Assembly (NCBI GenBank): GCA_902806105.1
Contig: CADCVI010000097.1
Span: forward strand, 3,178-10,320
Direction of reading: 5' to 3'
Origin: an uncultured Rubrobacteraceae bacterium
GTDB lineage: Bacteria; Actinomycetota; Rubrobacteria; Rubrobacterales; Rubrobacteraceae
Length of the DNA: 7,143 nt
The notes under the pieces were generated by a model. It saw nothing but the letters and a program-made list of their open reading frames with translations, was not told where the DNA came from and made no database searches. Made by a program: the position numbers and the translations under genes. Below, piece after piece: positions 1 to 7,143 of the stretch (its first letter is position 1; the number at the start of each line of letters is the position of its first letter).

Positions 1-884
1 TCCAGAAACGCCGGGTCGTCGACGACCCCGAGCACGGCCCTGACCGCCGCCATCGCAAGGGGATTGCCGCCGAAGGTCGAGCCGTGATCCCCCGGGGAGA
101 GTGCTGCGCATCCCTCTTTGGCGAGCACCGCACCGACCGGGAAGCCGCCGCCGAGGCCCTTGGCGCTCGCGAGCACGTCCGGGACGATGCTCGTCCCCTG
201 GTAGGCGTAAAGGTATCCGGTGCGCCCCGCCCCCGTCTGGACCTCGTCGAAGATCAGCAGGGCGTCGTGCTCGTCGCAGAGCTCACGGAGCCCTTCGAGG
301 AACCCTTCAGGCGCCTCGTTTATACCGCCCTCGCCCTGCACGGGCTCGACGAGCACGGCGGCGGTCCGGGGACCGACGGCCCCCCGCGCCGCCTCCAGGT
401 CGCCGAAGGGGGCGTGAACGAAGCCGGGGAGCATGGGGCCGAAGCCGGTCTTGTAGGACTCCTGGGCCGTGGCGGTCAGGCCGCCGTAGGTGCGGCCGTG
501 GAAGGACTTTGTGAAGGTCAGGACCTCGTGCTTGTCGGGGCCGTGAGCCTTGTGGGCGTGCAGGCGGGCGAGCTTTATGGCCCCCTCGACGGCCTCGGCG
601 CCGGAGTTGCAGAAGAAGACCCGATCGAAGTCCGTGGCGCCGGTGAGCATAGCGGCTACCTCGGCCTGTAGCGGTTCTTCGTAGAGGTTCGAGCAGTGGA
701 TCAGCTCGCCCGCCTGCCCCTGTATCGCGCCGACGAGCGCGGGGTGAGCGTGGCCGAGGGAGTTTGTCGCGATGCCCGCTATGAAATCCAGGTAGCGGTT
801 GCCGTCCTCGTCGAAGAGCCAGGACCCGCTGCCGCCCCTCGGGGCTATGCTCATCCGCTTGTAGGTCTCCATGAGTGCGTTCAT
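1..884 (-). CDS. argD: Acetylornithine aminotransferase (5' 294 codons; C-terminus beyond the left edge)
   Basis: ArgD is a cytosolic PLP enzyme. It converts N-acetylglutamate semialdehyde plus glutamate to N-acetylornithine, and family members often also act on succinyldiaminopimelate. Reading leftward from ATG at 884-882, 294 codons are visible of a family length near 390-400, so roughly the last 100 residues are missing. Class-III aminotransferase landmarks appear in order: CNSGAEAVEGAIKLAR (92-107) for cofactor phosphate binding, SFHGRT (127-132), PVQGEGG (181-187), FDEVQTGAGRTG (212-223) with the PLP-ring Asp213, and ASAKGLGGG (239-247) with Lys242 as the Schiff-base lysine. STFGGNPLA follows at 269-277. 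The start is well supported: AAGGGAG lies 7 nt upstream on the minus strand. The ATG overlaps the argB TGA by 4 nt (ATGA), implying translational coupling. It is the third gene of argJ-argB-argD. GABA or ornithine aminotransferase is possible on sequence alone but unlikely in this context. Confidence 0.96.
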   Translation of the reverse strand, partial: MNALMETYKRMSIAPRGGSGSWLFDEDGNRYLDFIAGIATNSLGHAHPALVGAIQGQAGELIHCSNLYEEPLQAEVAAMLTGATDFDRVFFCNSGAEAVEGAIKLARLHAHKAHGPDKHEVLTFTKSFHGRTYGGLTATAQESYKTGFGPMLPGFVHAPFGDLEAARGAVGPRTAAVLVEPVQGEGGINEAPEGFLEGLRELCDEHDALLIFDEVQTGAGRTGYLYAYQGTSIVPDVLASAKGLGGGFPVGAVLAKEGCAALSPGDHGSTFGGNPLAMAAVRAVLGVVDDPAFL

Positions 885-1663
885 GCGGCGACTCCCTTCG
901 ATATCAAAGTTCCTACTCGCTCCCCGGCGACGGCGCCCGCGAGCGTGCCCCGTCTGTTGCCGTTGACGATCCTGGCCTCCACGCCGCCCCTCGCGGCCTC
1001 CGCGGCCGCCCGGAGCTTCGGGACCATCCCCCCGACCGCGAGGCCCTTCTGGACGTATCCCTCGCAATCATCCGGCGCCAGAGAAGCGACGGCCTCCCCG
1101 TCGGCCAGGAGCCCGTCGACGTCCGTGAGGAAGAACAGGTGCCCGGCCCCGAGCCCGGCGGCGAGCGCCGCCGCCGCCGCGTCGGCGTTGACGTTGTAGG
1201 CCCCCTCGGGGCCGAGGCCGACCGGCGCGATCACCGGCACGAACCCCCCCGCCCACAGTGCCTCGACGAGGTTCCCGTCGACCTTCGTGACGCTCCCGAC
1301 GCGCCCGAGGTTCGGGACCGGGGCGACGCGCAGGATCGGGCCGTCCGTCCCGGAGATGCCTGCCGCCGGTACCCCCAGGCCATACAGCTCCCGGACGAGG
1401 CCCTTGTTGACCTCCCCGGCGAAGACCATCTCGGCGACGGCCATCGTCTTCTCGTCCGTCACCCGAAGTCCCTCGCGAAACTCCGTGGTGATGCCGAGGG
1501 CGTCGAGCATCCGGGTGAGCTGCTTGCCGCCGCCGTGCACGAGCGCGACGGGCGTGCCCCCGGCGAGCAGGCCCGGCAGGTCCTCCAGCGCTCCGCCCGC
1601 GAGCGCCCCGCCCCCTATCTTCACGACCACCGGCCTCGTCGAGGGCCTCATCGCGGCGTTCAC
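881..1663 (-). CDS. argB: N-acetylglutamate kinase (short, E. coli-like form)
   Basis: ArgB phosphorylates N-acetylglutamate with ATP, the second step of the acetyl arginine pathway, in the cytosol. From GTG at 1663 it has 260 residues. Amino-acid-kinase motifs are intact: VVVKIGGG (12-19) with the ATP-phosphate Lys, LVHGGGKQL (41-49), GLRVTDEKTM (65-74), NVNADAAA (158-165) and LTDVDGLL (179-186), then GGMVPKL (211-217) with the second catalytic Lys. I prefer GTG 1663 over ATG 1651 for two reasons. It makes a 4-nt GTGA overlap with the argJ stop, and GGGAG lies 9 nt upstream, whereas the ATG is 21 nt away. ATG 1651 would give 256 residues. Kinase sequence begins almost at the start, so the N-terminal helix of arginine-inhibited kinases is absent, as in the insensitive E. 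coli enzyme. Insensitivity here is inference. A LysZ role is unlikely without LysW and next to argJ. Confidence 0.95.
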   Translation of the reverse strand: MNAAMRPSTRPVVVKIGGGALAGGALEDLPGLLAGGTPVALVHGGGKQLTRMLDALGITTEFREGLRVTDEKTMAVAEMVFAGEVNKGLVRELYGLGVPAAGISGTDGPILRVAPVPNLGRVGSVTKVDGNLVEALWAGGFVPVIAPVGLGPEGAYNVNADAAAAALAAGLGAGHLFFLTDVDGLLADGEAVASLAPDDCEGYVQKGLAVGGMVPKLRAAAEAARGGVEARIVNGNRRGTLAGAVAGERVGTLISKGVAA

Positions 1664-2886
1664 GAGCGGTAGCTCCCGTTGATCTTGACGTACTCGTACG
1701 TCAGGTCGCAGCCCCACGCCGTCGCCGAGGCGTCCCCCTCGGAGAGCCGCGCCGTGATCACGACCTCGTCCCCGGAGAGGGCTGCGTTCGCCTCCGCCGC
1801 GTCGTGCGCTGCGGGAGCCCCGCCCCCGAAGACCTTGACCGGCCCGAAGAAGAGATCCACGCCGTCCGGGTCGAACTCTTCGCCGGAGTAGCCCATCGCC
1901 GTGAGGACCCGGCCCCAGTTCGCGTCCTCGCCGTGGGCCGCCGCCTTGACAAGGCTGCTCCCGACGACCGAACGCGCCATCCGCGCCGCCGATCCCTCGC
2001 TCCGCGCCCCCTCGACGACGACCTCGACGAGCTTCGTCGCGCCCTCGCCGTCCCTCGCGATCTCCTTCGCAAGCTCCCGCATCACCCACTCGACCGCCCC
2101 CGCGAACGCCTCGTAACCTGGCGAGCCCTGCGAGATGGTCTCGTTTCCCGCAGCACCGTTGGCGAGGAGGAGCACCATGTCGTTCGGTGAGGTGTCGCCG
2201 TCCACGGTGACGCGGTTGAAGGTCCGCTCCGTGGCCCGGCTCAGGGTCTCCCGCAGGCAGCCCTCCTCGACCGCCGCGTCCGTCGTGACGAAGGCGAGCA
2301 TGGTCGCCATGTTCGGGTGGATCATGCCGCTACCCTTGGCCGTCCCCCCGACGGTGACCGTCACCCCCCCGACCTCGACCGTCGCCGCGGCCTCCTTGGT
2401 GCGCGTGTCCGTCGTCAGGATGGCCTGCGCGAACGAGGTCCCGTCCGGCCCGAGGCTCGCCGCAGCGTCCCTGATACCCGCCTCGATGCGGTCCATCGGG
2501 AGGTGCTCCCCGATCACGCCGGTAGAAGCTACCGCTACCTCGTCCGCCCCAACCCCGAGCTCCTCCGCCACCAAGGCCTGCATCCGGCGCGCATCCTCCA
2601 TCCCCCGCGGGCCGGTCGCCGCGTTGGCGATCCCGCTGTTCGCAACGACCGCCCGCACCCCTCCCTCGACGGCCCCACGCGTGACGAGCAGCGGCGCCGC
2701 CTTCAAAACGTTCGTCGTGCTCACGCAGGCCGCGCTCCCGCCCGGCGCCTCCGAGACCAACAGGCCGACGTCCGGCCGCCCCTCGTACCGCACCCGGGCC
2801 GCAACCCCCGACGCCACGAACCCCCGAGCCGCCGTCGCCCCGCCTTCTATGGGGCTTATTCTGGTTTCTGTATTTTTATTCATCAT
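1660..2886 (-). CDS. argJ: Glutamate N-acetyltransferase / ornithine acetyltransferase
   Basis: ArgJ moves the acetyl group from N-acetylornithine to glutamate, releasing ornithine and recycling N-acetylglutamate. Bifunctional members also use acetyl-CoA, and sequence alone does not tell which kind this is. The 408-residue protein is full length for the family (about 390-410). It has the autocleavage motif KGSGMIHPNMATML (184-197), in which Thr195 becomes the N-terminal nucleophile of the beta chain. STGVIGEHLP (121-130) supplies the oxyanion-hole Thr-Gly, NSGIANAATG lies at 83-92, and the typical end CDLTYEYVKING is at 393-404. Two adjacent ATGs (2886 and 2883) could start it. Neither has a Shine-Dalgarno sequence, and the predicted transcription start is within about 2 nt, so a leaderless message is likely. 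The first codons are AT-rich (AAT AAA AAT ACA) because an ARG box overlaps them. It is first in argJ-argB-argD and ends in a GTGA overlap with argB. Confidence 0.97.
   Translation of the reverse strand: MMNKNTETRISPIEGGATAARGFVASGVAARVRYEGRPDVGLLVSEAPGGSAACVSTTNVLKAAPLLVTRGAVEGGVRAVVANSGIANAATGPRGMEDARRMQALVAEELGVGADEVAVASTGVIGEHLPMDRIEAGIRDAAASLGPDGTSFAQAILTTDTRTKEAAATVEVGGVTVTVGGTAKGSGMIHPNMATMLAFVTTDAAVEEGCLRETLSRATERTFNRVTVDGDTSPNDMVLLLANGAAGNETISQGSPGYEAFAGAVEWVMRELAKEIARDGEGATKLVEVVVEGARSEGSAARMARSVVGSSLVKAAAHGEDANWGRVLTAMGYSGEEFDPDGVDLFFGPVKVFGGGAPAAHDAAEANAALSGDEVVITARLSEGDASATAWGCDLTYEYVKINGSYRS
1673..1677 (-). promoter_or_regulatory. Ribosome binding site for argB, deciding a GTG start
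   Basis: The minus strand reads GGGAG here, inside the 3' end of argJ. It is followed by 9 nt and then GTG at 1663-1661. The next in-frame ATG (1651) is 21 nt from this site, too far for usual spacing. The GTG also overlaps the argJ TGA as GTGA, mirroring the argB-argD and argC-argR joints. The site therefore favours the GTG start. Confidence 0.7.
2867..2884. promoter_or_regulatory. ARG box (ArgR operator) over the argJ start codon
   Basis: The plus strand reads TCTGTATTTTTATTCATC. Against the known ArgR/AhrC consensus TNTGAATWWWWATTCANW only position 5 (T for A) and position 18 (C for W) differ, i.e. 16 of 18 positions agree, counting the two Ns. It covers ATG 2883 and the next argJ codons. 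It lies immediately downstream of the predicted argJ transcription start, so bound ArgR would block initiation or early clearance. ArgR being encoded five genes' width away in the same locus strengthens the call. No binding has been tested. Confidence 0.8.
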
Positions 2887-2894
2887 CGAGCGTC

Positions 2895-2923
2895 ATTGTC
2901 GCAGGGGCGCACGAGGGGGTCAA
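2895..2923 (-). promoter_or_regulatory. Promoter for argJBD, predicted leaderless start
   Basis: On the minus strand, TTGACC (2923-2918; 5 of 6 to TTGACA) is followed by exactly 17 nt and then GACAAT (2900-2895; 4 of 6 to TATAAT). Only 8 nt separate the -10 from the first argJ ATG. Transcription should therefore begin at about 2888-2886, at or next to the start codon. This fits the absence of any Shine-Dalgarno sequence before argJ and the position of the ARG box just downstream. Confidence 0.7.
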
Positions 2924-2939
2924 GCGTTTTATGCAGGAA

Positions 2940-2957
2940 CTTGAATAAATATCCGCA
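2940..2957. promoter_or_regulatory. ARG box (ArgR operator) upstream of argC
   Basis: The plus strand reads CTTGAATAAATATCCGCA. The left half-site TTGAAT and the AT spacer match TNTGAATWWWWATTCANW fully except for the first base. The right half-site is weaker, ATCCG for ATTCA, giving 15 of 18 agreeing positions counting Ns. It ends at the argC Shine-Dalgarno AGGA (2957-2960), so ArgR here could block both promoter and leader. I cannot place the argC promoter firmly: TTTTAT at 2927-2932 is a possible -10, but no good -35 precedes it. Confidence 0.65.
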
Positions 2958-2967
2958 GGATGTTGTA

Positions 2968-4008
2968 ATGCCGTTTATGGGTTTGAAAGCGGCGGTTTAC
3001 GGTGGCAGCGGGTACACGGGCGGGGAGCTCTTGCGGCTCCTCTCGGGGCATCCGGAGGTAGGCGGGATAGAGGTTTCTTCGCGCCAGCACGCGGGGAAGG
3101 TCGTGGGGGAAGTTTATCCCGAGCTCGCGGTCAGGGAGCGGTTCGTGGAGGCCGGTGAGATCGAGGCTTCGTCGCTCGACGTGGCGTTCGTCGCCTACCC
3201 GCACATGGAGAGCGCGGGGCTGGTGAAGGAGCTTCTGGGGGCGGGGACCGGGCTCGTGGTCGACCTCTCGGCGGACTTCCGGCTGCCTGACGTGGAGATG
3301 TACGAGGAGTGGTACGGGCCGCATCCCGCGCCGGAGCTGCTCGCTGAGGCGCATTACGGGCTGCCGGAGGTTTACGGGTCCCCGGAGGGCGGGCGGCTCG
3401 TAGCCAACCCGGGGTGTTATCCGACGGCGGCGATCCTGGCCCTCGCGCCGGTCGTGAAGCGTCTCGCGGTCTCCTCGGTGGCGGTCAACGCGCTCTCCGG
3501 GGTGAGCGGGGCGGGGGCGAAGGCGACGCAGAAGACGCACTTCGTCAGCGCGAACGAGAACGTTTCGCCCTACGGGATGAGCGAGGGGTCGCCGCGTCAC
3601 CGCCACACCCCCGAGATAGAGACCATGCTCAGGCGGTTCGCGCCGGGGGTTCCGGCGGTCACGTTCGTGCCGCACCTGTTGCCGATCTCGCGCGGGGAGC
3701 TTGAGACGATCTACGTCGACCTCCCGGACGGGGCGGAATTGCCGGAGGCCGGGGACGTCCTCGGGTGGTTCGCTGAGGACTACGACGGCTGGGAGTTTGT
3801 CGAGGCGCGGGCGGAGGTACCCCAGATCTCCCACGTCGTGGGGACGAACCGGGCGCGGCTCTCGGTGGCGGTAGACAAGAGGGCCGGGAGGCTCGTTCTG
3901 TTCTCCGCCCTGGACAACCTCCTCAAGGGGGCCTCCGGTGCCGCCGTGCAGAACATGAACCTGGCCCTCGGGTACGCGGAGACGACCGGGCTGGAGTACC
4001 TGAGATGA
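2968..4008 (+). CDS. argC: N-acetyl-gamma-glutamyl-phosphate reductase
   Basis: ArgC reduces N-acetylglutamyl phosphate to the semialdehyde with NADPH, the third step of the acetyl pathway, in the cytosol. The 346-residue length is normal for the family. Its N-terminal Rossmann fold starts with VYGGSGYTGGELLRLL (10-25). The catalytic cysteine is Cys150 in NPGCYPT (148-154). The HRHTPEI motif (211-217) supplies the catalytic histidine, and the C-terminal nucleotide-binding segment DNLLKGASGAAVQ is at 316-328. ATG 2968 has AGGA (2957-2960) 7 nt upstream; the in-frame ATG at 2977 is 16 nt away and less likely. One small departure is AYPHMES (76-82), where ArgC proteins usually read ALPHG-S. The gene is transcribed divergently from argJ, is probably repressed through the ARG box just upstream, and overlaps argR by 4 nt (ATGA). 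Confidence 0.97.
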   Translation: MPFMGLKAAVYGGSGYTGGELLRLLSGHPEVGGIEVSSRQHAGKVVGEVYPELAVRERFVEAGEIEASSLDVAFVAYPHMESAGLVKELLGAGTGLVVDLSADFRLPDVEMYEEWYGPHPAPELLAEAHYGLPEVYGSPEGGRLVANPGCYPTAAILALAPVVKRLAVSSVAVNALSGVSGAGAKATQKTHFVSANENVSPYGMSEGSPRHRHTPEIETMLRRFAPGVPAVTFVPHLLPISRGELETIYVDLPDGAELPEAGDVLGWFAEDYDGWEFVEARAEVPQISHVVGTNRARLSVAVDKRAGRLVLFSALDNLLKGASGAAVQNMNLALGYAETTGLEYLR

Positions 4009-4502
4009 GCGTGGAGGACGGGGTGGGAAGGACGCAGGAAGGGGTAGACAAGGGCACCCGCCAGAACCTCATTCTCAGGCTCATCTCCGAGCAGTCCCTC
4101 GGGACGCAGGGGGACGTGGTCGGGGCGCTCGCCGGGGTCGGGGTCGAGGTAGCGCAGGCGACGGTGAGCCGGGATCTCGCGGAGCTCGGGGTGTTGAAGG
4201 TCGGCAACCGTTACCTGGCGCTGCCGCACGAGTCGAACATGGCCGGCATCGAGGTCCTGCCCAGCTTCGTGCTGCGGGTGACCGCCGCGCAGAATTCGGT
4301 AGTCGTCCACACGCGCGACGGGACCGCCGGCGCCGTCGCCAACGTCCTCGACAGGGTGAAGGGGCTGAAGATCGTGGGCACCGTCGCGGGCCTGGATACG
4401 GTCTTTGCGATCTCGCCCGACAACGAGGCCGCTGAAGAGGTCGCCGGCCTCATCGCCGACGTCTGCCGGGCGAAGACGCGCCCCGCGGGCACCATAGAGT
4501 AG
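4005..4502 (+). CDS. argR: Arginine repressor
   Basis: ArgR/AhrC proteins are hexameric, arginine-responsive DNA-binding regulators that bind ARG boxes of arginine genes. The 165-residue product is slightly longer than the usual 150-156 because of an acidic N-terminal extension of about 15 residues. The winged helix-turn-helix spans about 18-72, with the signature recognition helix ATVSRDLAELGVLKV (52-66). The oligomerisation and effector domain follows at about 86-158, including SVVVHTRDGTAGAVANVLD (98-116) and GTVAGLDTVFAIS (125-137). The family usually has GDDT in the last motif, where the Asp pair contacts arginine; here it is GLDT, with Leu130 replacing the first Asp. ATG 4005 overlaps the argC stop (ATGA) and has GGAG 8 nt upstream. 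Lying inside an operon with an ARG box, it is probably autoregulated. Identity is secure; effector behaviour is less so. Confidence 0.95.
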   Translation: MSVEDGVGRTQEGVDKGTRQNLILRLISEQSLGTQGDVVGALAGVGVEVAQATVSRDLAELGVLKVGNRYLALPHESNMAGIEVLPSFVLRVTAAQNSVVVHTRDGTAGAVANVLDRVKGLKIVGTVAGLDTVFAISPDNEAAEEVAGLIADVCRAKTRPAGTIE

Positions 4503-4513
4503 TTGTCGGCGAC

Positions 4514-4517
4514 GAGG
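4514..4517 (+). promoter_or_regulatory. Ribosome binding site supporting GTG 4527 of the GNAT-ACT gene
   Basis: GAGG is followed by 9 nt and then GTG at 4527. The competing TTG at 4503 sits upstream of this motif and has no comparable site before it. The GTG start also places GNAT strand 1 only a few residues from the N-terminus, as is usual. Support is moderate because direct stop-to-start coupling from argR to TTG 4503 remains possible. Confidence 0.5.
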
Positions 4518-4526
4518 CGTACGGCC

Positions 4527-5402
4527 GTGCCCTGCCGGGTGCGCCCCGGTACCCCCGAAGACCTGGGTTTCCTGTGGGAGATGCTCCACGAGGCCTCCGG
4601 GCACGGCGACGTCTCCGATCCCGCCCTTTCCCTGTACCTCGAAGGCTGGGGGAGACCCGGCGACGCTGCCGTAGTCGCCGTCGACCCATCGAGCGGCGAG
4701 GGGATAGGGGCCGCCTGGTACCGCCTGATGACCCCGGAGAGGCCCGGTTACGGCTTCGTGGATTCCTCGACGCCGGAGGTTGCAGTCGGGGTGGTCGCGG
4801 AGCATCGCGGCCGGGGCGTGGGAGGCGTACTGCTCCCCGCCCTCATGGACGCCGCCAGGGACGAGGGTTTCGGCGCGTTGAGCCTTAGCGTCCGGCGTGA
4901 GAACACGTTCGCCGTGAGGCTCTACGAGCGGAACGGTTTCGTCAGGGTCGCCGAGATTGGCTCCGAGCATCCCTCGTGGGCGATGAAGGTTGAGTTGTCC
5001 GGCGGGGAGGGATCGGGGCGGAAGCGCACTCTCAAGCTGAAGAAGCTCGGCGGGCGCATGGCGGTCTGCCGCCTGGAGCCCTCCTCCGTCGTACCGGCCT
5101 GGGCGACCGGCGCGGCGTTCTTCTCCATAACGCGCACGGCGGACGAGCTCTCGATCGTCTGCCCGGAAGGAGACGTCCCCGATGGGACAAGGCGAGAAGG
5201 GGGATGGCGCGTGCTGGCGCTGGAGGGACCGTTCGAGTTCTCGGAGGTCGGCGTGCTGGCGTCGGTGTTGGAACCTCTGGCCGAGGCCGGGGTGAGCATC
5301 TTCGCCCTCTCGACCTACGACACGGACTACGTGCTCGTCGGGGAAGAGGGGTTGGAACGGGCAATCTCGGCGCTCGTAGAGCGGGGTCACGAAGTCGTAT
5401 GA
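4527..5402 (+). CDS. GNAT acetyltransferase fused to a C-terminal CASTOR-like ACT domain
   Basis: A two-domain protein of unknown substrate. Residues about 1-158 (291-residue form) are a GNAT acetyl-CoA-dependent transferase: strand 1 and the TPED turn at 9-12, WGRPGDAAVVAV at 41-52, and the acetyl-CoA pyrophosphate loop EHRGRGVG at 92-99. LSLSVRRENTFAVRLYERNGF at 119-138 is the typical motif B region. A basic linker (about 159-175) leads to an ACT domain of the ACT_7/CASTOR kind (about 176-291), with FAVCRL-like MAVCRLEP (178-185), FFSITRTADELSIVC (198-212) and SIFALSTYDTDYVLV (257-271). Such domains bind amino acids, arginine in human CASTOR1. GAGG lies 9 nt before GTG 4527. TTG 4503, directly after the argR stop, would give 299 residues but lacks a clear ribosome site. 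Position between argR and argG suggests an amino-acid-responsive acetyltransferase tied to arginine metabolism; this is inference. It lacks the kinase-like domain of classical N-acetylglutamate synthase. Confidence 0.85.
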   Translation: MPCRVRPGTPEDLGFLWEMLHEASGHGDVSDPALSLYLEGWGRPGDAAVVAVDPSSGEGIGAAWYRLMTPERPGYGFVDSSTPEVAVGVVAEHRGRGVGGVLLPALMDAARDEGFGALSLSVRRENTFAVRLYERNGFVRVAEIGSEHPSWAMKVELSGGEGSGRKRTLKLKKLGGRMAVCRLEPSSVVPAWATGAAFFSITRTADELSIVCPEGDVPDGTRREGGWRVLALEGPFEFSEVGVLASVLEPLAEAGVSIFALSTYDTDYVLVGEEGLERAISALVERGHEVV

Positions 5403-5436: not shown

Positions 5437-6663
5437 ATGCTAGAAGGCAAGAAGGTAGTGCTCGCTTACTCCGGGGGGCTGGATACCTCCGTGTGTCTGA
5501 AGTGGTTCGAGCTACAGGGGGCGGAGCCATACGCGCTGTATCTGGATCTGGGACAGGGCGAGCCGGCGGTCGACGTGAAAGCCAAGGCCATGAAGATAGG
5601 GGCGGCCGACGCGTTCGTGCGCGACGCGAAAAAGGAGTTCGCCGAGGAGTACGTGGCGCCAGCCATCCGGGCCAACGCCCTGTACGGCGGCAAGTACCCG
5701 CTCTTCACGGCGCTCGGGCGCCCGCTCATCGCGAAGAAGCTCGTCGAGGTCGCGCGGGAGGTCGGGGCGACGCACATCGCGCACGGGTCGACGGGGAAGG
5801 GGAACGATCAGGTGCGCTTCGACGTCACCACGGCCTCCATCGCCCCGGACCTCACGGTCGTCGCCCCGGTGCGCGACTGGAACATGAGCCGCCCGGAGGA
5901 GATGGCCTACGCCGAGGAGCACGGCATCCCGGTCTCCGTAACCAAGAAATCCCCCTACAGCGTCGACGAGAACCTCTTCGGCCGCTCCATCGAGGCAGGC
6001 CCCCTGGAAGACCCCGACCACGAGCCGACGAGCGACGTCTACGAGATGACGACCGATCCTGAGGATGCCCCGAACGAGGCCCAGTACGTCACCATCGGCT
6101 TCGAGGAGGGCCTGCCGGTAAGCCTCGACGGCGAATCCTTCCCGCTCGCCGAGCTTATCGCGGAGCTGAACACCATCGCGGGGGCCCACGGGGTCGGCAG
6201 GCTCGACATGATCGAGGATAGGCTCGTCGGCATAAAGAGCCGTGAGATCTACGAGTGCCCCGCCGCCCTGACCATCGTCCAGGCCCACAAGGAGCTGGAG
6301 TCGATGACCCTCACCAAGGACGTCCTCCGCTTCAAGGCAGCGGTCGAGCAGCGCTACGCCGAGCTTACGTACGAGGGCCTCTGGTTCACGCCGCTGAAGA
6401 CCGCCCTCGACGCCTTCGTCGCGGAAACCCAGAAGACCGTCACCGGCAACGTCCGCCTCAAGCTCTACAAGGGCTCCTCGACCGTCGCCGGGCGTGTCGC
6501 CCCCCACGCCCTGTACAACAAGGAACTCGCCACCTACGACCCCAACAGCACCTTCGACGAAGCGGCGGCAGCTGGCTTTATCGCCCTCTGGGGCCTCCCG
6601 GCCCGCCAGTGGGCCGGGGTCAACGGCGGCGTCGAGATGGGCCAGAGTCCAGCCGCGAAGTAG
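5437..6663 (+). CDS. argG: Argininosuccinate synthase
   Basis: ArgG joins citrulline and aspartate using ATP, forming argininosuccinate, AMP and pyrophosphate in the cytosol; this is the penultimate step to arginine. The 408-residue protein is normal for the short bacterial type (about 400). It shows the PP-loop AYSGGLDTS (10-18) for ATP, then HGSTGKGNDQVRF (116-128), where many homologues have Cys for Ser in HGCTGKGND. SVDENLFGRSIEAGPLEDP (175-193) contains the citrulline- and aspartate-binding residues typical of the family. YECPA follows near residue 272, in the conserved C-terminal part. ATG 5437 has a strong AGGAGG (5427-5432) only 4 nt upstream. It follows the GNAT-ACT gene by 34 nt, the widest gap inside the argC-side group, where a weak internal promoter is possible. 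argH, its usual partner, does not follow; a hairpin and a macrodomain gene do. Confidence 0.98.
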   Translation: MLEGKKVVLAYSGGLDTSVCLKWFELQGAEPYALYLDLGQGEPAVDVKAKAMKIGAADAFVRDAKKEFAEEYVAPAIRANALYGGKYPLFTALGRPLIAKKLVEVAREVGATHIAHGSTGKGNDQVRFDVTTASIAPDLTVVAPVRDWNMSRPEEMAYAEEHGIPVSVTKKSPYSVDENLFGRSIEAGPLEDPDHEPTSDVYEMTTDPEDAPNEAQYVTIGFEEGLPVSLDGESFPLAELIAELNTIAGAHGVGRLDMIEDRLVGIKSREIYECPAALTIVQAHKELESMTLTKDVLRFKAAVEQRYAELTYEGLWFTPLKTALDAFVAETQKTVTGNVRLKLYKGSSTVAGRVAPHALYNKELATYDPNSTFDEAAAAGFIALWGLPARQWAGVNGGVEMGQSPAAK

Positions 6664-6735: not shown

Positions 6736-6777
6736 GCCTGACCGTCACCCATGCCTCCCGGCCTCCGGAGCCGTATC

Positions 6778-7143
6778 TTGAGGGCGGAGTTCGGCGGGGC
6801 GGTGCTGGAGCTCGTCCAGGGGGACATCACGGATCAGGGGACGGACGCTATCGTCAACGCCGCCAACTCGGGCCTGGCCGGTGGGGGAGGGGTGGATGGA
6901 GCGATCCACCGCGCCGGCGGCCCGAGGATCATGGAGGAATGCCGCAAGATAGGCGGCTGCCCCACCGGCCAGGCCCGCATAACCTCCGGCGGCAACCTGA
7001 AGGCCCGCCACGTCATCCACGCCGTCGGACCCATCTACCGGGACGGCGCCTCCGGCGAGAAAGACCAGCTCGCGAGCGCCTACCGCAACAGCCTGCGCCT
7101 TGCCGTCGACAACGGCCTGCGGAGCGTAGCGTTCCCCTCGCTC
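6778..7143 (+). CDS. Macrodomain protein, MacroD/YmdB type (partial, 3' end beyond the right edge)
   Basis: The visible 122 residues form most of a macrodomain that binds ADP-ribose. MacroD-type members hydrolyse O-acetyl-ADP-ribose and remove mono-ADP-ribose from acidic residues. Motifs in order: GDIT (15-18) at the adenosine end of the ligand, [22 protein letters not shown] (27-48) and VIHAVGP (79-85). By alignment of the NAAN-to-GGGGVD spacing, Asn30 and Asp40 match the catalytic Asn and Asp of human MacroD1, so activity is expected. TTG 6778 is preferred: GGAG (6767-6770) is 7 nt upstream and the protein then begins just before the first strand. ATG 6751, in the same frame, would add nine residues (MPPGLRSRI) but lacks a ribosome site. 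It is co-directional with argG but separated by 114 nt and a hairpin, so it probably belongs to another unit. Any role in arginine metabolism is unproven. Confidence 0.9.

Follow-up and report, generated by a model that had tools for sequence, protein, structure and literature searches.

The arginine locus and its fusion gene

The stretch of DNA analysed here (the window, 7143 bases) contains argJ, argB and argD running leftwards and argC, argR, a gene that joins a GNAT acetyltransferase domain to an ACT-type unit, and argG running rightwards, with a macro-domain gene last. The arginine genes, the fusion and the control region between the two arms are as follows:

3..884, minus strand: argD, running off the window (open frame and synteny in relatives; named by reading)
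881..1651, minus strand: argB, with no evident N-terminal extension (TIGR00761 over cut-off)
1660..2886, minus strand: argJ, divergent (NF003802, 484.7 bits against a cut-off of 351)
2865..2958, no strand: control region between argJ and argC; two ARG-box-like sites, at 2877-2882 (TATTCA) and 2942-2947 (TGAATA)
2968..4008, plus strand: argC, overlapping the start of argR (TIGR01850 over cut-off)
4005..4502, plus strand: argR, arginine repressor (Pfam Arg_repressor and Arg_repressor_C over cut-off)
4503..5402, plus strand: GNAT-ACT fusion gene (start at TTG 4503 or GTG 4527, TGA stop at 5400-5402)
5437..6663, plus strand: argG, 34 bases downstream of the fusion stop (Pfam Arginosuc_synth and Arginosuc_syn_C)

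The fusion is a single unbroken frame which begins either at TTG 4503, with the argR stop codon immediately 5' of it, or at the in-frame GTG 4527, and the homologue P0001 (291 aa, 98% identical) has the GTG 4527 residue as its first residue and ends at the same point. All three Pfam matches in the protein exceed the gathering score (Acetyltransf_1 3e-11, A9CJY8-like_N 1.2e-19 and ACT_7 2.3e-20), and the SIFALSTYDTDYVLV stretch is present. An earlier note on this DNA, made from the letters alone, had claimed a GNAT and an ACT_7 domain in one frame, an intact acetyl-CoA loop, and a position between argR and argG, and all three are borne out by the open frame with its Pfam matches, by EHRGRGVG at residues 100–107, and by the Pfam assignments of argR before and argG after the gene (the NCBIfam model argR_whole scores 103 bits, below its cut-off of 130). 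The same note's ACT domain of the ACT_7/CASTOR kind was right in family (PF13840 and matches to CASTOR) and wrong in being single, as this half is an Atu0741-like unit of two subdomains. The fusion is therefore confirmed, with the refinement that its sensor half is a two-subdomain unit.

By BLAST, both halves were found in all of the 120 best of 953 homologues (73 GNAT first and 47 ACT first), and the fusion is for this reason not a chance product. It should be noted that the search admitted proteins of 0.55–1.75 times the query length (7999 candidates were scored), which excludes single-domain proteins, so that the frequency of free-standing halves cannot be read from the list; the 120 are metagenome fusions, taken whatever their genomic neighbourhood, which the length limits favour. 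The nearest named relatives of the window are Rubrobacter. In two homologues, P0145 and P0148 (the latter named from a Candidatus Roseilinea bin), the ACT unit is extended on its C-terminal side by about 100 residues.

The argJ/argC intergenic region bears TTGAATAAATAT-type and TTTATTCA-type sites, which we take to be close to the ARG box. Their core hexamers, TATTCA and TGAATA, occur once each in the window. All 26 loci examined have the TGAATA site, and 25 of them have the TATTCA site where argJ starts; the exception, L130, has a TATTCA elsewhere in the control region. Because these ARG-box-like sites precede the operon, the fusion is likely to be under ArgR control.

The macro-domain gene lies directly 3' of argG (6751-7143, plus strand), with a match after argG also in loci L001, L002, L003, L005, L006 and L142 and none in L007–L010. 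In L007 (3060-4023) argJ reads as two pieces in two frames, which is possibly an assembly error.

The GNAT half

The N-terminal half falls in the GNAT superfamily by its PF00583 match (3e-11) and its (R/Q)xxGx(G/A) loop, and has these features:

4539..4997, plus strand: GNAT domain, residues 13-165 (Acetyltransf_1 over residues 45-146; extent from homologue alignments)
4776..4778, plus strand: Glu92, candidate general base before strand beta4 (conservation in alignments)
4806..4823, plus strand: acetyl-CoA loop RGRGVG, residues 102-107 (alignments)
4923..4925, plus strand: Tyr141, candidate general acid (invariant in three alignments)

The candidate role of Glu92 is taken from an alignment with Gcn5, that of Tyr141 from comparison with GNATs in general, and the meaning of the RGRGVG motif from its use in the family. 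Residue 92 is Glu in 24 and Asp in five of the 29 sequences of an alignment covering both domain orders (A1) and is invariant in two others (A2 with 71 rows and A3 with 20), and in A1 residue 102 is Arg in 28 sequences and Gln in one, with G105, G107 and Y141 found in every row.

Alignment A3 consists of four GNATs from the argR–argG interval, referred to here as the slot (none of them ACT first), and 16 from elsewhere, which share among other residues L24, Y45, W49, D54, W72, R74, G82, G84, P91, E92, R102, N134 and Y141. The catalytic residues are identical in relatives from Bacilli, other Actinobacteria and Aliterella that are not linked to arginine genes, so that the chemistry of the arginine-linked GNATs is probably the same as in those relatives; the GNAT half is 36–56% identical to unlinked genomic relatives. 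Its best NCBIfam names are RimI-like, below cut-off, and its best PDB relatives include RimI and N-terminal acetyltransferases. The earlier note held this half to be nearer to general GNATs than to known synthases, and the match in catalytic residues makes the substrate no clearer than that.

The ACT half and its candidate pocket

The C-terminal half has PF21631 and PF13840 in tandem, the A9CJY8-like arrangement, and the following features:

5055..5183, plus strand: A9CJY8-like_N, first ACT-like half (PF21631, 1.2e-19)
5196..5375, plus strand: ACT_7 domain (PF13840, 2.3e-20)
5295..5297, plus strand: Ser265, equivalent of CASTOR1 Ser111 (alignment)
5325..5327, plus strand: Asp275, equivalent of CASTOR1 Asp304 (alignment)

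The best solved match is Atu0741 (1zhv; 6.9e-30 over residues 177–298), followed by CASTOR1/2 chains at about 1e-14. According to passages of PMC5187391, the Asp304 side chain of CASTOR1 contacts the guanidinium and the Ser111 side chain the amino group of arginine, the D304A mutation abolishes binding, and arginine binding by CASTOR2 is not detectable by ITC.

We compared these positions in a set of 143 ACTs and in 15 ACTs from outside the family. The set comprises 23 sequences taken from the window and the slot loci and 120 metagenome fusions, the latter grouped with the slot members whatever their neighbourhood. The Asp275 equivalent is Asp in 142 of the 143, with one gap, and also in 15/15 of the ACT_7 relatives outside the family, and the Asp is thus no evidence of arginine specificity. 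The Ser265 equivalent is Ser in 82/143 and Gly in 48/143, and Ser in 5/15 outside the family. An acidic residue at the CASTOR1 Gly274 position was considered as a mark of a basic ligand and rejected (Glu or Asp in 135/143, but also in 11/15 outside the family). In an alignment of 71 GNAT-first proteins, many positions of the ACT show little or no variation.

The expectation that the pocket would keep its ligand residues therefore holds for the Asp304 equivalent and, in 82 of the 143 sequences, for that of Ser111, and these residues would permit amino-acid binding without telling which ligand is bound. As CASTOR1 binds arginine between its two halves, we infer by analogy that a homodimer would be required to form the pocket in the fusion.

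The arginine linkage inside and outside the family

A genome collection scanned with two GNAT peptide patterns gave 256 relatives, and we examined the best 80. The order argC–argR–[GNAT with or without ACT]–argG is found in all of the first ten, and where the contig extends far enough argJ is seen to be divergent (by title, nine are Rubrobacter or Rubrobacteraceae and one is 'Actinomycetota bacterium'). No arginine-synthesis gene matching those of the window was found beside the other 70, many of which lie on short contigs; one of them (L011) is on the same contig as L163 of genome G039, and is a family member outside the slot. In seven unlinked loci from other actinobacterial bins (L020, L025, L039, L050, L064, L067 and L071) argR alone lies 2–7 kb from the GNAT. 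This was rejected as an arginine link when L067, L050 and L071 were inspected and no arginine-synthesis gene matching the window's was found; in L067 a dehydrogenase E1-like frame, recognised by eye, lies between argR and the GNAT.

We then surveyed the Rubrobacter marinus (G001) family, in which a match at 1e-8 was found for 29 of the 39 genomes. A GNAT match was found in 18 of the 39, and in 16 of these 18 it lies between argR and argG (the others are G028 and G039). The earlier note had made conserved linkage to arginine genes a test of its proposal, and within this family the linkage is conserved. The 34 readable slots, 28 of which hold GNAT and/or ACT, are of the following types:

Fused GNAT-ACT: 5 genomes
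GNAT then ACT in adjacent separate frames: 3 genomes (G036, with an in-frame TAG; G006, with the ACT interrupted; G009)
GNAT without ACT: 4 genomes (G005, G007, G020 and G037, the last interrupted)
Fused ACT-GNAT: 3 genomes
Separate ACT then GNAT: 1 genome
ACT without GNAT: 12 genomes (including G011 and G025, where argR is off the contig; G011 shows only a piece of ACT)
Empty: 6 genomes
Slot not readable, in addition to these 34: 5 genomes (3 in which no argG was found, 2 cut off by a contig edge)

Some of the interrupted copies may be assembly errors of metagenome bins. The GNAT is missing from 18 of the 34 readable slots (the 12 with ACT without GNAT and the six empty) and is dispensable there. 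In G021 and G022 a GNAT lies some 4.7 kb away from the ACT and was considered as a replacement synthase. This was rejected, as by eye the G021 GNAT reads as ArsN2-like and its neighbours as a transporter and genes of arsenic type. In two further family genomes (G019 and G038) there is an ACT_7 match that does not lie near arginine genes.

A phylum sample of 396 genomes, family members included, was also searched, with five candidates scored per genome and 78 genomes matching at 1e-20. Both halves occur in six genomes from outside the family, five of which have them on separate contigs and one at a distance of about 14 kb. Around 15 ACT loci from outside the family, within up to about 6–7 kb per side and less at contig ends, no match to the arginine-synthesis genes of the window was found. 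The arginine linkage is thus conserved in one family, the Rubrobacteraceae.

Reshuffling of the slot

A tree of six concatenated arginine proteins was constructed with 32 of 33 rows (L097 was dropped for having too few columns), with 21 of its 29 inner branches starred. On this operon tree the slot arrangement requires at least 15 changes (mean of 20.3 when shuffled, with none of 200 shuffles as low), GNAT presence at least eight, and ACT presence at least six. Close sisters differ, with ACT-GNAT in G008 vs ACT only in G015, and ACT-GNAT in G010 vs ACT without GNAT in G031.

Domain trees were built from every third GNAT-first and every second ACT-first of the 120 homologues and from hits above a minimum length, with the metagenome proteins again grouped with slot members. 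The careful GNAT tree was made without 14 of the 38 outgroup rows and without roughly half of the homologues of a quick tree. In it, all of the ACT-first GNATs used, fused or separate, are placed in one starred clade (100/99) together with one long-branch outsider (L041). The GNAT-first rows form no single clade in this tree, and a single clean origin for each order was therefore rejected; in the quick tree, GNAT-first rows were grouped (SH-aLRT 87) and three ACT-first rows fell outside their clade. The arrangements are intermixed in the ACT tree, which has few columns and many open forks. The simplest reading is that the ACT is the old resident, that GNATs came in before or after it, and that losses were repeated; alternatively, the history may be one of old tandem GNATs, or of transfer. 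The homologue P0126 (488 aa) is of the form ACT-GNAT-GNAT, and its two GNAT copies, which differ from each other, may be left over from older tandem GNATs.

A UlaG-like MBL-fold hydrolase gene is also found in the slot, before the ACT in G010, G027, G028 and G031 and after it in G030, where 804 bases following the ACT read as the hydrolase. The identification was by Pfam for G010 (locus L010) and by reading for the other four, and the genes or gaps are placed as follows:

L010:9201-9983, L090:722-1492 and L094:1884-2654: MBL-fold gene
L097 and L143: gaps beside the ACT

The extra 800 bases before the ACT in four of these genomes had been considered as a second GNAT, which was rejected on finding the hydrolase (Pfam for L010, with L090, L094 and L097 alike). 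Two metagenome homologues, P0141 and P0146, are ACT-MBL hydrolase fusions, and the hydrolase may belong to the same exchangeable set as the other slot modules. As the ACT merges with both GNAT and MBL neighbours, fusion alone is no proof of a joint function with the GNAT.

Glutamate acetylation and feedback in the pathway

No classical ArgA scored over cut-off in any of the 39 family genomes (what matched there was the kinase part, as would be the case for ArgB), nor did S-NAGS in the same 39 (using a model without a positive control over cut-off) or C-NAGS in 27 genomes; one control genome passed the cut-off in each of the ArgA and C-NAGS searches. A Cg3035-type C-NAGS relative with one internal stop was seen in G008 (C40:1053-1760; 114 bits against a cut-off of 280), and this genome carries an ACT-GNAT slot gene. 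Sections of PMC3827942 and PMC4490483 describe GNAT-type proteins without the ArgA kinase domain as glutamate acetyltransferases in Actinobacteria. ArgJ scores in a family named 'bifunctional', which is a name and not an assay, and were it bifunctional a second synthase would be unnecessary.

The window ArgB starts about seven residues before the first strand, with residue 6 aligning to residue 3 of 1gs5. By contrast, 2bty aligns to it from residue 24 and 2buf from residue 28 (these we take to be the Thermotoga maritima and Pseudomonas aeruginosa enzymes). The 1gs5 sequence is that of the E. coli enzyme, named through entries 2WXB and 1OHA in PMC3329491, the relevant part of which also reports an N-terminal extension of 19–38 residues in all arginine-inhibitable kinases, and the E. 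coli kinase is described in part of PMC3182869 as dimeric and arginine-insensitive. No such extension was evident in the window or, by eye, in 25 relatives, including all six empty-slot genomes, even though the pathway includes ArgJ. The upstream frame has a stop within ten residues of the aligned start in L009 and L131 and elsewhere runs back into argJ, so that an overlapping upstream start is just conceivable there. As ArgB is without an evident extension, the usual arginine feedback point is probably missing and feedback at ArgB is unlikely on this alignment; the short form is found both with and without slot modules, and the slot is therefore no simple substitute for ArgB feedback.

Comparison with known systems

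The closest precedent in working is provided by AAPatA and the type III ACT-GNATs (MaKat Micau_1670, SvePatA and AmiPatA), which like the fusion have ACT and GNAT domains in one actinobacterial chain. From the parts of PMC8556138 and PMC6434083 used here, these have the ACT before the GNAT and a DXPGXL motif between ACT beta1 and alpha1, and they acetylate Acs under the control of Asn, Cys or Arg, with the arginine gating of MaKat a precedent for gating in the fusion. The window fusion has the GNAT first and the ACT C-terminal (the reverse order is seen in 47 of its 120 best homologues) and SEVGVL rather than the motif at residues 247–252, and it differs further in its ACT_7/A9CJY8 type and its position in an arginine operon. 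By analogy the fusion may work like AAPatA, but in domain order and motif it is no member of that group.

The CASTOR1/2 (GATSL) arginine sensors, known from humans, share with the fusion the matches over the ACT_7 part and the Asp304 and Ser111 equivalents, which are not discriminating. The CASTOR1 chain has four ACT domains, whereas the sensor unit of the fusion is joined to an enzyme and has one A9CJY8-like_N and one ACT_7, so that a dimer would be needed. Atu0741 matches residues 177–298 but is a 134-residue chain without a GNAT, and in the open-licence literature searched no paper pairs its PDB code with 'ACT domain'.

ArgA (AAK-GNAT) follows the same logic as the fusion, an amino-acid-binding domain with a GNAT in the same pathway context, but has a kinase (AAK) domain before the GNAT, for which the fusion has no Pfam match. 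The fusion scores 15 bits against a cut-off of 180 for S-NAGS (PRK07922) and 17.8 bits against 280 for C-NAGS (the Cg3035 family), and by these model scores is not a member of a known NAGS class. The best chain for the GNAT is 4h89, a GCN5-related acetyltransferase (phmmer 1e-8), and the widespread 'GYGFVD' GNATs are related to this half but stand alone and have no arginine link. The term 'ACT domain' is absent from the passages of PMC4490483 consulted, and among the open-licence papers listed no title or opening of an abstract describes the fusion or slot.

Possible roles of the fusion

In the mechanism we propose, ArgR would allow expression of the fusion when arginine is short, and the Atu0741/CASTOR-like halves of two chains would pair to form a pocket for an amino acid of the pathway, with arginine or ornithine the likeliest ligands. 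Ligand bound there would change GNAT activity, in cis where the halves are fused and in trans where they are split. The GNAT would acetylate a small amino-acid substrate, with glutamate as the best guess, and the fusion would then be a feedback-inhibited accessory (anaplerotic) N-acetylglutamate synthase topping up the ArgJ cycle, with ArgJ alone doing the job where the GNAT is missing. As the protein would be made at arginine scarcity, it would make better sense for arginine, on its return, to inhibit it than to activate it. We regard gating by a pathway amino acid, whatever the substrate, as about evenly balanced between true and false, and offer the ArgR-controlled, amino-acid-gated synthase acting on glutamate tentatively, as a reading more likely wrong than right. 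Consistent with it are the position of the GNAT between argR and argG in 16 of 18 GNAT-bearing genomes (of 39) and the location of the halves elsewhere away from arginine-synthesis genes in the loci examined, the joining of GNAT and ACT in both orders as well as split, the ARG-box-like sites before the operon (26 loci examined), the lack of ArgA and S-NAGS (0/39 each) and C-NAGS (0/27) over cut-off, an ArgB without an evident 19–38-residue extension, the intact GNAT catalytic positions and the Asp304 and Ser111 equivalents in the window, and the kinase-less actinobacterial glutamate acetyltransferases described in parts of PMC3827942 and PMC4490483. Against it, the GNAT is absent from 18/34 readable slots, its catalytic residues are the same in unlinked relatives (arguing for a general substrate), its best names are RimI-like with NAGS models far below cut-off, ArgJ is in a 'bifunctional'-named family, G008 has both an ACT-GNAT and, elsewhere, the 114-bit sub-cut-off C-NAGS relative, the S-NAGS model lacked a positive control over cut-off, the pocket residues are not specific to slot members, and all six empty-slot genomes have the short ArgB as well. 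In addition, the MBL hydrolase is also beside or fused to the ACT, and joining may simply mirror adjacency.

In the single most probable alternative, the ACT is the real operon component, sensing an amino acid and acting on ArgR or an arginine enzyme in trans, and the GNAT and MBL proteins are exchangeable neighbours with general roles whose fusions came from the merging of packed genes. Slots with ACT without GNAT (12/34) as against GNAT alone (4/34), the MBL-fold gene beside the ACT in G010, G027, G028, G031 and G030 and fused to it in P0141 and P0146, a GNAT active site equal to that of unlinked relatives, and at least eight changes in GNAT presence on the operon tree all argue for this reading, but the GNAT persists without ACT in G005, G007 and G020 (and interrupted in G037) and metagenomes supply many fusions of each order (73 and 47 amongst the 120 best, from a search favouring fusions); we consider it a real possibility short of probable, and GNAT gating in some form, on glutamate or on protein, together weighs more. 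Gating of a protein acetyltransferase in the manner of AAPatA, directed at a lysine or N-terminus of a pathway enzyme or at acetyl-CoA synthetase, would suit the dispensability of the GNAT, as befits a regulator, its RimI and N-terminal acetyltransferase relatives (NCBIfam and PDB), and the amino-acid-switched acetylation of Acs by actinobacterial ACT-GNATs described in parts of PMC6434083 and PMC8556138. We think this version somewhat unlikely, given that the ACT is of another family (ACT_7, without DXPGXL) and follows the GNAT in the window, and that the neighbours point to no protein target beyond the arginine enzymes. It is improbable, in our judgement, that the ACT half is a dimerisation scaffold or relic and the fusion free of amino-acid regulation: the Gly at the Ser111 position in 48/143, the interrupted copies in G006, G036 and G037, and the lack of detectable arginine binding by ITC reported for CASTOR2 in the relevant part of PMC5187391 fit such a role, but Asp275 is kept in 142/143 and many ACT positions are near-invariant in the 71 GNAT-first proteins.

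Taken to its full extent, our proposal would have a CASTOR-type sensor as the arginine-pathway feedback device of the Rubrobacteraceae, whose ArgB seems to be without an arginine site, with an ACT dimer reading arginine or ornithine and throttling a new, non-homologous class of feedback-controlled NAGS, and its modules joined, split, swapped and lost many times in one slot; this complete picture is unlikely to be correct. If gating holds, the fusion would be a new variant of an amino-acid-regulated acetyltransferase, ACT-GNAT gating being already known from AAPatA, and a CASTOR-like sensor would be acting on a bacterial enzyme within the operon of its own pathway, a case of relevance to the origin of such arginine sensors. 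Together the slot and the short ArgB pose the question of where arginine feedback acts when ArgB seems to be without its arginine-binding extension, and the variety of the slot hints at a local way of sensing amino acids in the Rubrobacter family. As the slot is a natural series of modules fused in either order, split or single, gating in cis and in trans can be compared directly.
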